NCBI GenBank assembly: GCA_030377965.1
Contig: JAUCGE010000004.1
Location: 1-64,000 of the forward strand
Origin: Desulfobacterales bacterium HSG16
GTDB lineage: Bacteria > Desulfobacterota > Desulfobacteria > Desulfobacterales > HSG16
Length of the DNA: 64,000 nucleotides
Reading direction: 5' to 3'
The position numbers and the translations under genes were made by a program. Under the pieces are notes generated by a model. The model worked only from the letters and a program-made list of their open reading frames with translations, did not search any database and was not told where the DNA came from. Below, one piece after another: positions 1,666 to 38,861 of the stretch. The stretch's first letter is position 1. Every line of letters begins with the position of its first letter.

Positions 1666-2640
1666 TCAGACTACGAACACCAGAACGAGTGCAATTACCA
1701 GAGAATAGATAGCCGTGGATTCAGCAACTGCCATACCCACCAGCATGAGCCTGACAATCTCGCCCGTATGTTTTTCGTTTCGTGCCACCCATGCTACACC
1801 TCCGCTGGATGCCACGCCTTCACCGATACCAGGGCCGATAGCCCCGAATCCGATACAGAGTCCTGATGCAAGAAGGGCCATTGCCGGAGCGAGGGCCGAG
1901 CTTGCTGCATATGATTTGAAAATAAGTATAAAACTGACCAGCAGGCCAAGTATTGCAGGTGTCTGTGTAATAGCCTGCCCTAAAAGCATGATATTGGTAA
2001 TTGTTGTGGTCGCGGCAGGCTGCCTTGCAATACCGTCGCAGCTCTGTTTGGCCACTATGCCGCCTCCAATGCCTGAGCCTATGGCTGACAGGCCTGATGC
2101 GAATCCTGCGCCCAGAACAGCAGCCCATGTGGGAGAAATCGGGCGGGCTGAAAAATCAGTGAACAGCAATATAAAAGATACCACCAGAGCGAAAATGGAA
2201 GGAGTCTGGCATACCGCTGAACCAATGAGCATGTTTGTGGTCAGCTTGTTGCTTACAGCAGGTTGTCTGACCATGCCGATACAGGCAGAGCCTGCTGGAA
2301 ACCCAGCGCCGATTCCTGCACCGATAGCGCCAATTCCCATGGAAAGTCCTGCTCCGAACACGGCTGGTATCATTACAGGAGTTGTGGCTGGAAAATTTGT
2401 GAACAGAAGAATCATGGCCACCACCAGAGCGAAAATGGAAGCAGATTCTGCAATTGCCTGACCCACCAGCATTGATTTGATAACATCGCCGGCTGCATTT
2501 CCGTTTCTGGAAATGGCCGAACTGGCCTGCGCTGCGGTATATCCTTCACCGATAGCTGCTCCGACGGCTCCGAAACCCATTGCGATTCCGCCGCCGATGT
2601 AGGCCGCTACATTCACCCATGTCTGAATATCAAGTCCCAT
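1666..2640 (-). CDS. atpE: Fused four-hairpin ATP synthase subunit c
   Basis: 324 residues, four tandem c-subunit hairpins (eight membrane helices) with a repeat of about 81 residues. The helix-2 ion-site residue is E65 in hairpin 1, Q145 in hairpin 2, Q226 in hairpin 3 and E307 in hairpin 4. The helix-1 partner is E32, A112, G193 and E274. Hairpins 1 and 4 are therefore two-carboxylate sites; hairpin 4 also keeps V305, S308, T309 and Y312. Hairpins 2 and 3 have lost both carboxylates and read QTP. The Gly-x-Gly packing motifs persist in all four, so the protein looks maintained rather than decaying. The reading frame is intact. It sits 3 bp after atpB and before the normal atpE. Duplicated c subunits with fewer sites are known in V-type rings and in Acetobacterium woodii. 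Confidence 0.9.
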   Translation of the reverse strand: MGLDIQTWVNVAAYIGGGIAMGFGAVGAAIGEGYTAAQASSAISRNGNAAGDVIKSMLVGQAIAESASIFALVVAMILLFTNFPATTPVMIPAVFGAGLSMGIGAIGAGIGAGFPAGSACIGMVRQPAVSNKLTTNMLIGSAVCQTPSIFALVVSFILLFTDFSARPISPTWAAVLGAGFASGLSAIGSGIGGGIVAKQSCDGIARQPAATTTITNIMLLGQAITQTPAILGLLVSFILIFKSYAASSALAPAMALLASGLCIGFGAIGPGIGEGVASSGGVAWVARNEKHTGEIVRLMLVGMAVAESTAIYSLVIALVLVFVV

Positions 2641-13104: not shown

Positions 13105-13228
13105 ATTCTTCCATTGACATCAGCTAATTCTGCATTAATTTCTTGCATATCGGAAGGCGGCAGGGTTTTTATATCCACGGAATTTGTGTATCCGAACTGA
13201 TGACATCAAACTATGGTATATTAAAGGT

Positions 13229-14347
13229 ATGGCGGGTAAAAGGGATTATTATGAAATTCTGGGCGTTGATCGAAACGTCACAGATGATGCGATCAAGAGC
13301 AGTTACAGAAAACTGGCCATGAAGCATCACCCGGATAGAAATCCGGGTGACAAGGAAGCTGAAGAGAAGTTCAAAGAAGCTGCCGAAGCCTATGAGGTGT
13401 TGAGAGATCCCCAGAAACGGAACTTATATGACCAGTACGGTCATGAAGGACTCGAAGGAAGCGGTTTTTCCGGGTTTGGTGATTTCAATGACATTTTTTC
13501 GAGTTTCGGCGATATATTCGAGGATTTTTTCGGTTTTTCTTCTGGCAGACGCTCCAGGAGTCGGGCTAATCGCGGCGCTGATCTGCGTTATGACATGAAA
13601 CTCAGTTTCATGGACGCGGTGTTCGGCAAGGAAAGTGAAATTTCCATTGATAAAATGGAAACCTGCACCGAATGTCGCGGAGATGGATGCAAGCCTGGTT
13701 CACGGCCTCAGCAATGCCCTCAATGTAATGGTTCCGGCCAGGTACAGAGAACTCAGGGTTTTTTTACCCTCAGAACCACCTGCTCCCAGTGCAGAGGCAA
13801 TGGCCAGTTTATTTCTGACCCATGTCATGAATGCAGAGGCGCTGGCAAAGTCAAGATCAGCAAGCGTGTTTCGGTAAAAATTCCGGCAGGCGTTGATACA
13901 GGCTCAAGGTTGAGGTTGACCGGTGAAGGGGAAGCAGGCTCATATGGAGGCCCTGCAGGAGATCTGTATGTAGTTATTCATGTGGAACCCCATGATTTTT
14001 TCGAAAGAAAAGATATTCATGTAATCTGCCAGATTCCGATTTCATTCATACAGGCCGCATTAGGTGATAAAATCGAGGTACCCACTTTGAAAGGTGAGAA
14101 AACCTTGAAGGTTCCAAAGGGAACTCAGCCTGGAGAAATTTTTCGCTTTCCGGGCGAGGGCATTACCTCACTAAGAAATGGCAGACCTGGAGATCAGATA
14201 ATACAGGTGGACATCAAGACTCCGACCAATTTAAATAAAAAACAGGAATCTTTGCTGAGAGACTTCGCTAAACTTGAGGAAACAAAATTTACCACCAAGA
14301 TCAAAAATCTGTTCAAAGGCGATTCAACAAAGGCGACAGCCCGATAG
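13229..14347 (+). CDS. dnaJ: Chaperone DnaJ (type I Hsp40)
   Basis: 372 residues. The J domain at 5-70 has the HPD motif ([10 protein letters not shown]), followed by a Gly/Phe region ([10 protein letters not shown]) and four zinc repeats ([32 protein letters not shown]), then the C-terminal substrate-binding domains. It stimulates DnaK ATPase and delivers clients. The frame is open upstream to 13184, but [13 protein letters not shown] at 13229 is the canonical DnaJ start. dnaK and grpE are not in the window. Confidence 0.95.
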
Positions 14348-37036: not shown

Positions 37037-37450
37037 TCAGGCTGCCGCTACCTTGATTTTTACAGGTGTCGCCTTTGGCACCTTTGGAAGAACCAGCCTC
37101 AGTACCCCATTGTCCAGTCTGGCATCGATCTTTTTCTGGTCGATTTTTTCCGAAAGACTGAACTGGCGGAAATACTTGCCTGTTTCATATTCGGTCACCA
37201 GTTCCTTTTCTTTGCTGCATTCGGCCTGTTCTATTTCTCCTGACAATGTCAGGGTATTCTCCCGGATATCAATATCCAGGTTTTCGGCTTTTACGCCCGG
37301 CATGTCCGCAAGAAGGGATAATTCTCCTTCTGTCTCAAAAATATCCACAGAAGGAGTGAAAACCCGCCCGGCATGTGTCTGCTCGCATGAAGAATGAGCA
37401 GCCTCTGTTTTGCATCTGGCCGACAATTCTTTGGTTTCATTTGCTGACAT
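37037..37450 (-). CDS. Small heat-shock protein, Hsp20/alpha-crystallin family (second copy)
   Basis: 137 residues. The alpha-crystallin domain at about 28-130 shows VDIFETEGELSLLADMPGVK, DIDIRENTLTLSGE and the closing ARLDNGVLRLVLPK (A-x-x-x-n-G-v-L motif), ending in a C-terminal tail without a clear IxI. ATP-independent holdase. The Cys-containing N-terminal arm is short. Lies 27 bp behind the first hsp20 gene, with which it is surely co-transcribed. The two proteins are diverged, so they may form mixed oligomers (inference). Confidence 0.92.
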   Translation of the reverse strand: MSANETKELSARCKTEAAHSSCEQTHAGRVFTPSVDIFETEGELSLLADMPGVKAENLDIDIRENTLTLSGEIEQAECSKEKELVTEYETGKYFRQFSLSEKIDQKKIDARLDNGVLRLVLPKVPKATPVKIKVAAA

Positions 37451-37477
37451 TTTGTAACCTCCGTAATTCTATTTTGT

Positions 37478-37930
37478 TTAGTGGATTGTAATATGCTGCG
37501 GTTTTGCATTTTCTGCCTTGGGCAACGTTATCATAAGCACGCCTTCGGACAATTTTGCTGTAACTTTCTTGCCATCCACATTGTCAGGCAGAGTTAAAGC
37601 CCTGGAAAACCGTCCTGCATCACGTTCCCTTCGATGATATTTTACATCCTCACCTTCTGAAGGAATCTTTCGTTTTCCTGCAATAGACAGATTTTTTCCG
37701 GTAACATTGATGTCAATGTCGTCTGTTGTTAAACCTGGCAGTTCTGCACGTACATAGTATTTATCATTGTTTTCTGTAAGGTTGACAAGAGGGAACACAC
37801 CTGCCGGAGTTTTCGAGCTGTAGTCGCCCGAAGCATGTTCGAATAGTCTGCCCATCTGCCTGTGAATTCGCTCCATTTCTGCAAATGGACTGTAAGTTCT
37901 GTAAGGATTCAATACTCTTCTGAGGATCAT
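37478..37930 (-). CDS. Small heat-shock protein, Hsp20/alpha-crystallin family (first copy)
   Basis: 150 residues. An N-terminal arm of about 40 residues (RMGRLFEH-type helix) precedes the alpha-crystallin domain: NDKYYVRAELPGLTTDDI, DINVTGKNLSIAGKR, ALTLPDNVDGKKVTAKLSEG and VLMITLPKAE, with the terminal ITIH. Holdase that keeps unfolded proteins soluble. AAAGGAG precedes ATG 37930. The upstream 400 bp carry four copies of a promoter-like motif on the same strand. Confidence 0.93.
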   Translation of the reverse strand: MILRRVLNPYRTYSPFAEMERIHRQMGRLFEHASGDYSSKTPAGVFPLVNLTENNDKYYVRAELPGLTTDDIDINVTGKNLSIAGKRKIPSEGEDVKYHRRERDAGRFSRALTLPDNVDGKKVTAKLSEGVLMITLPKAENAKPQHITIH

Positions 37931-38534
37931 GATTTAACTCCTTTCGTGAAATAATATATTTTATTGTAAATGTTTGAAACGCCTGTTAATAGTTTTCCTT
38001 TGTCTGTATCAGCAGGTTATTCTTGTTTGAATAAAAAACTAATCATCTGTCAGGATGTGTCAAGAGTTTTTTTATGATAGTTAATTCAAAATGTTATATT
38101 GATACAAACAGCTAAAATAAACATTTCTTTTTTTGTGTCAAGAGAATAAAAGTATAAAATTTTCGTACTCTGATATCCTTGTATAAATAAAAGGATTCTG
38201 ATCAGATGTTTGAATCAAAATTTAACCATTCGGAGAAGAGTGTCAAGTTGTTCTCGATTGTTTTTTAATGCAGATATATCACCATATTGAAAAGTAGTCA
38301 CTGTTTATAAAATAATCATCTTTTCATCTGTGTCAAGAACTTGATTTCAATTTGTCCTGTCTATGAAGTCTATTTCTGCCAGGCAGGCACTCAGGGAAGT
38401 CAATAATATACCAACCCTGTTTGTCTTTTGCCCTGTATTCTGTGTTGCTGCAAAGGATGAGGAGGTAGAGAATATGCCTGGCAGAATAAATCTGTTTTAT
38501 TGCAAACTGTACCATAAAAAAAGCATACAATGAA
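37931..38534. other. Long regulatory region upstream of the hsp20 pair
   Basis: About 600 bp without a gene, strongly AT-rich, containing the repeated motif array at 38034-38337. Positions 38340-38534 show nothing recognised. Confidence 0.5.
38034..38337 (-). promoter_or_regulatory. Four-copy promoter-like array upstream of hsp20
   Basis: On the minus strand CTTGACAC-N10-ATG(A/G/T)TTA followed by a T/A-rich run occurs four times. The CTTGACAC boxes are at 38330-38337, 38240-38247, 38135-38142 and 38057-38064, each with exactly 10 bp before ATGnTTA. Two copies also share ATTCAAACA at the same offset. All point toward hsp20. They resemble stacked -35/-10 promoters (heat-shock or house-keeping sigma) or repeated sites for a regulator. 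Confidence 0.6.
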
Positions 38535-38861
38535 TCAATCGAATTTATAATCTTGTCTGACCGGATGAAAAATATCGATTATCCTGCAGTCAGTTTTTGC
38601 CGTGCCGCTGTGAGGGGAATCGGATGGAATTACGGTCACTATTCCAGGTGTAAGCACCCTGCTTTCTCCGTCAACTACCATTTCGAATTCACCCTCAATG
38701 ACATTGGATATCTGTTCATGGGGATGACTGTGTTCAGGAAGAGTGGAACCCGCCTTAATTGTAAAAAATGAGATTGTCATTTTCTCGGAGTGAACGAATT
38801 TTGCCTTAAAACCTGCAACCAGCTCTCTTTCTTTGATTGAATCGAGTTCGATAAAAGACAT
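38535..38861 (-). CDS. Small cupin-domain protein
   Basis: 108 residues. The metal-site motif LPEHSHPHEQISNVIEGEFE near 41-60 (GX5HXHX-type) and the second motif VIPSDSPHSG near 77-86 define a single cupin barrel. Such proteins bind a metal and often act on or sense small molecules. AAGGAAAG precedes the start. No functional link to hsp20 can be shown. Confidence 0.82.
   Translation of the reverse strand: MSFIELDSIKERELVAGFKAKFVHSEKMTISFFTIKAGSTLPEHSHPHEQISNVIEGEFEMVVDGESRVLTPGIVTVIPSDSPHSGTAKTDCRIIDIFHPVRQDYKFD

Follow-up and report, generated by a model that had tools for sequence, protein, structure and literature searches.

The 604-bp intergenic region that separates two hsp20 genes from a cupin gene (38535-38861) contains what are very probably four tandem promoters for RpoH (sigma-32), all pointing at the hsp20 pair. 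Comparative sequence evidence at chaperone genes supports this reading, and with it one branch of the original prediction, that of stacked heat-shock promoters; the other branch was a multi-site operator. The kind of element is already known; the four-copy stack is the unusual part. A search of the open-licence literature found no report of a four-copy stack, nor any of tandem RpoH promoters upstream of hsp20 within this group.

Coordinates are those of the window, the whole stretch of 64,000 nucleotides that was analysed. Both hsp20 genes lie on the minus strand. The first (37478-37930; 150 aa; PF00011, E 4.3e-26) has a likely ribosome-binding sequence, AAAGGAG, read from the sequence at 37938-37944 on the same strand; the second (37037-37450; 137 aa; PF00011, E 8.4e-19) lies beyond it. 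Pattern matching located four exact copies of CTTGACAC-N10-ATGNTTA between 38040 and 38337, all on the minus strand, just as had been claimed. Each copy comprises CTTGACA, a 15-bp gap, and a second element: copy A, farthest upstream (38308-38337; exact match 38313-38337), carries TTATTTTA; copy B (38218-38247; exact match 38223-38247), TTAAATTT; copy C (38113-38142; exact match 38118-38142), again TTATTTTA; and the gene-proximal copy D (38035-38064; exact match 38040-38064), TTAGTTTT. The finer points of the description hold as well. Start-to-start distances are 78, 105, and 90 bp, the values first estimated; the constant 10-bp gap forms part of a fixed 15-bp gap from CTTGACA to TTA; and a T/A-rich run follows all four copies. 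The element said to recur in two copies at the same offset is ATTCAAACA, which begins 32 nt past the start of copies B (start 38247; element at 38207-38215, minus strand) and D (start 38064; element at 38024-38032, minus strand).

The array's copies are the only exact matches to this pattern among the 4,818,055 bases searched (the genome is 80% complete), and the reversed-pattern control has none in the same 4,818,055 bases. With up to two mismatches allowed, the genome contains 51 matches versus 16 in the control. In 2000 first-order Markov versions of the 604-bp region, sites at the score reached by all four real copies averaged 0.0125, with a maximum of one.

A fuller description of the motif comes from relatives. 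Thirty hsp20 loci and 30 groES loci were fetched (in each case 29 from relatives plus the genome's own), many of which have CTTGACA with TTA or CTA 15 bp on. Expectation-maximisation was run on the 58 relatives' upstream regions, the window's genome being excluded and the groES regions being taken upstream of the preceding zinc-ribbon gene where present. The learned motif is CTTGACA-N12-TnntTATnTTT. It scores 13 or more in 43 of these 58 training regions, an in-sample figure (hsp20, 21/29; groES, 22/29), leaving 15 below. On the minus strand of the 64-kb window, the four top sites of this matrix, trained without the window's genome, are the array copies: C (20.7, the highest in the window), A (19.7), D (15.8), and B (14.0, the lowest of the four). 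Markov versions of the window average 0.57 sites with a score of at least 14.0 (maximum 2 in 30). The same promoter type occurs at 13113-13142 on the plus strand, before a dnaJ gene (13184-14347; DnaJ domains); its score of 14.0 is the best for that strand in the window.

A strict form of the motif, CTTGACA-N15-YTATNTTT, is matched 178 times in a set of 116 genomes, about 1.5 per genome, with 92 of the genomes having a match, whereas the columns of the reversed control sum to 16. Chaperone genes or operons follow 22 of 30 sampled strict sites: GrpE (7), zinc-ribbon FmdB-type (7), DnaJ-domain (4), Hsp20 (2), DnaK (1), and Cpn60 (1). The other eight precede TetR genes (2), a sigma factor (1), a NEW3-domain protein (1), or no informative gene (4). 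The zinc-ribbon genes (PF09723), which we take to be FmdB-type, precede groES in 24 of 30 loci (for example, L099 and L078), and where such a gene leads groESL the heat-shock promoter lies upstream of it. Each array copy is one base off the strict form (the last base of YTATNTTT in A and C, the fourth base in B and D), and for this reason the array escapes the strict form and is detected by the matrix and the wider form instead. The exact pattern of the original prediction has 16 matches in relatives (14 of 115 genomes; control, 1). Seven precede genes for Hsp20 (3), Cpn10/groES (2), ClpB (1), or the zinc-ribbon FmdB-type protein (1); the remaining nine are not at recognised chaperone genes, three being inside long reading frames and six before other genes.

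Searching for the motif before other stress genes, as had been suggested at the outset, reveals a two-part element at chaperone genes throughout the order, with the same spacing. The original prediction had named a lack of further occurrences upstream of genes, in the genome or in relatives, as grounds for refutation; this check was carried out and left the prediction standing. In the genome itself the element precedes groESL and grpE (the two strict matches), an FKBP-type isomerase gene (a match to the looser form), and probably dnaJ. That looser form, CTTGAC-N16-YTANNTT, is not enriched across the genome (11 matches versus 10 and 10 in the control columns), and the case therefore rests on the full motif together with its gene context.

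A candidate for the cognate sigma factor is present. The genome encodes one RpoH-like sigma factor and one longer sigma factor of the primary type. The former has Pfam sigma-70 regions 1.2, 2, and 4; contains QRKLFFKLKKEK, which we take to be the RpoH box; and scores 277 bits to TIGR02392 (rpoH_proteo), under the curated cut-off of 323.

All four copies have a −35 element of the CTTGA type, in each case CTTGACA. A −10 element of the CCCCAT type is absent from all four, which instead have TTATTTTA, TTAAATTT, TTATTTTA, and TTAGTTTT. The form YTATnTTT is common to the chaperone genes of relatives, and is read here as the −10 form of this lineage. Since it differs from the classical type, the claim, that the element works like an RpoH promoter, is based on gene association and on the presence of an RpoH-like sigma factor. 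Tandem arrangement has precedent: E. coli heat-shock operons such as dnaKJ have more than one sigma-32 promoter before a chaperone operon, although there the copies are fewer, the −10 element is different, and so is the gene.

A 2004 study predicted sigma-32 promoters in delta-proteobacteria from the profile CTTGAAA...CCCCAT, mostly with several mismatches (PMC545781). The parts of that paper considered here place CTTGA-type −35 elements before groESL, grpE-dnaK, dnaJ, clp, and lon genes, and assign two candidate sites to some operons (for example, Desulfotalea psychrophila groESL, at −201 and −134). Its main text does not contain the term hsp20, and the table rows examined include no four-copy array. 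Among its listed sites, CTTGAcA-[N13]-aCttAT agrees with the form seen in the array; the profile itself differs from CTTGACA-N15-YTATnTTT and fits it poorly. The present comparison provides a usable consensus for the RpoH promoters of one bacterial order. RpoH promoters of alpha-proteobacteria are described as cTTGaa-N16-CgATaT in Rhizobium etli (PMC4167512) and as TTGAAA and TATATN in Ehrlichia (PMC3836757). So far as the excerpts from these two papers go, the array resembles them in a −35 element that starts with TTG and a −10 element of the TAT type, but it has CTTGACA where they have TTGAA, its spacing is fixed, and its copies are in tandem.

How common are such stacks? The tandem census covered 66 hsp20 loci (the genome's own and 65 from relatives) for sites of score 13 or more within 1500 bp, some contigs being shorter than the full upstream region. 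At least one such site is present at 51 of the 66; antisense sites number 7 in 203 kb. Most relatives' hsp20 loci have a single site. Eight of 64 relatives' loci have tandem pairs, a count that excludes G165, which was added after a pattern search had flagged it. Pair separations span 76-102 bp, in a census that would show any size up to 250 bp. Seven pairs were found by the matrix (G022, 84 bp; G083, 85; G006, 85; G032, 95; G011, 86; G039, 102; G073, 76), and the eighth by the strict pattern only (G114, 85 bp). Upstream of hsp20 in G165 (contig C327; L125, L170), the promoter is present in at least five almost identical copies, partly as a 90-bp tandem repeat and adjoining a run of N; this array is a promoter-bearing minisatellite. 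A pair-pattern search of 389 genomes, restricted to separations of 55-115 bp (control matches, 1 and 0), found a promoter pair before the zinc-ribbon/groES operon in two genomes, G205 and G331.

Traces of the array's history remain in its flanks. Outside the motif, B and D are alike (z 3.0, dinucleotide shuffles) and A and C weakly so (z 1.2); other pairs are unlike. When blocks are aligned, AB matches CD with a z of 6.2, a value to which the motifs contribute and which may owe something to their spacing; AB-BC gives 0.6 and BC-CD 1.7. From these alignments, the array probably grew when an older block of two promoters was duplicated, giving A,B and C,D, which would account for the ATTCAAACA element common to B and D.

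There is an appreciable, though lesser, chance that heat-shock promoter activity is confined to one or two copies, C and D being the likeliest, and that the rest are relics of duplication. The single site in most relatives, the low score of copy B, and the confinement of flank likeness to B-D and, faintly, A-C are what this scenario would lead one to expect. Against it, all four copies keep 8/8 bases of CTTGACAC, the ATG-N-TTA element, and the exact spacing amid diverged flanks, a pattern suggestive of selection acting on every copy. Constitutive expression from housekeeping sigma-70 promoters is an improbable alternative. A sigma-70 scan does find TTGACA and a TATAAT-like hexamer (TATTTT) at 16 bp, matching at 10/12 positions in three copies; but the rarity of the strict form and its position at chaperone operons in 22 of 30 sampled cases are not what housekeeping promoters predict, as these should be far commoner and without any tie to chaperones.

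The other branch of the original prediction, four operator sites for an activator or repressor, finds no support and is very unlikely. Several similar sites within one intergenic region would suit an operator. However, the unit is asymmetric, always directed toward the gene, and built with −35/−10 spacing, and a single copy suffices before other chaperone genes; nor was the HrcA/CIRCE palindrome TTAGCACTC-N9-GAGTGCTAA found by eye in the array region. There is only the slightest chance that the regulator is the leader RNA, acting as an RNA thermometer in place of promoters. The leader from copy D, at about 95 nt, is a conceivable substrate, but no Rfam family reaches its gathering score across 37400-38600, and the leader folds no better than its shuffles (z 0.31).

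On the RpoH reading, each copy is a unit of CTTGACA, 15 bp, and YTAtnTTT, the type at heat-shock genes throughout the order. Heat or protein stress would raise the level of RpoH, which would then bring polymerase to several of the copies or to all of them. The RpoH holoenzyme presumably recognises each copy, and every copy may fire. The hsp20 output on heat shock would be the sum of several promoters, and could thereby be strong, on the expectation that these respond to heat and act additively. RNA polymerase has a footprint of about 75-80 bp; the pitch of 78-105 bp is at or above this value, so the copies need not exclude one another.

The relatives' between-promoter segments share a further element, YAAC-N4-TGATAT (log-likelihood 59.6 versus a maximum of 40.2 in 30 shuffles). 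This box starts 39-54 nt past the start of CTTGACA, just beyond the predicted transcript start. It scores 8 or more in 11 of 13 between-promoter segments (of these 13, two are the window's own or G165-internal duplicates, counted individually), as well as in 12 of the 44 regions behind single promoters, but in none of the regions upstream of promoters (0/44 and 0/10) and in none behind groES promoters (0/39). Promoter and box occur together in 54 of 389 genomes (control matches, 2); among the 30 loci listed, most precede hsp20 and several are inside reading frames. The combination is also found before a gene of 115 aa (MEIKNFLELKDAFELKKYVRNMDFDKKNCC...) at loci L180 and L181, where the next gene resembles, by eye, an alcohol dehydrogenase.

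Within the window only copies A, C, and D have the box, and weakly. All three examples are on the minus strand: CAATATGGTGATATAT behind copy A (38274-38289; score 6.1, a weak match to YAAC-N4-TGATATWA); TAACATTTTGAATTAA behind copy C (38081-38096; score 9.6); and TAACCTGCTGATACAG behind copy D, in the hsp20 leader (38004-38019; score 7.9). The box alone, as YAAC-N3-YTGATATAA, is common between genes in 45 of 58 genomes, well over the control columns (for example, in G049, G016, and G014), and is therefore not specific to heat shock. Compared by eye with an extended −10 element (TGnTATAAT), it keeps the last T poorly and is accompanied by no visible −35 element. An RNA hairpin behind the −10 element was considered and rejected: folding does not clearly set 45 sequences apart from their shuffles (over the hairpin stretch, mean z −0.6, s.e. 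0.47), and the predicted transcript start falls within the 5' arm. Some relatives have palindromes with an A-rich loop at this position (for example, G043, G113, and G108).

We tentatively suggest, as a doubtful extension, that the hsp20 operons of this order may carry a modular unit, an RpoH promoter plus a YAAC-N4-TGATATAA box, that has been duplicated repeatedly at a constrained pitch of 76-105 bp. Copy number (1, 2, 4, or at least 5) might then act as an inherited dial that sets heat-shock output, and the box as a further point of control, for instance a basal promoter nested in the unit or a site for a regulator. The hsp20 loci already vary naturally in the number of tandem promoter copies (1, 2, 4, and at least 5) and so offer a setting in which to ask if copy number tunes chaperone output.

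Three further features were noted. Of the 44 hsp20 upstream regions that have a single promoter, 21 contain an inverted repeat of near-constant length, ATTAY-N~22-RTAAT (shuffles give a mean of 2.9 and a maximum of 10). The repeat lies some 60 to 20 bp ahead of CTTGACA (for example, L045, L046, and L033) and is present upstream of the first promoter in 0 of 10 arrays; it may be the operator of some regulator. In the window, the interval between the cupin gene and the array contains a perfect 12-nt inverted repeat, TTCTGCCAGGCA / TGCCTGGCAGAA, at 38374-38385 and 38475-38486, its arms 89 nt apart. Finally, far from the array, a gene for ATP synthase subunit c (1666-2640, minus strand) encodes 324 aa with four matched PF00137 stretches, and apparently consists of four fused hairpin units.
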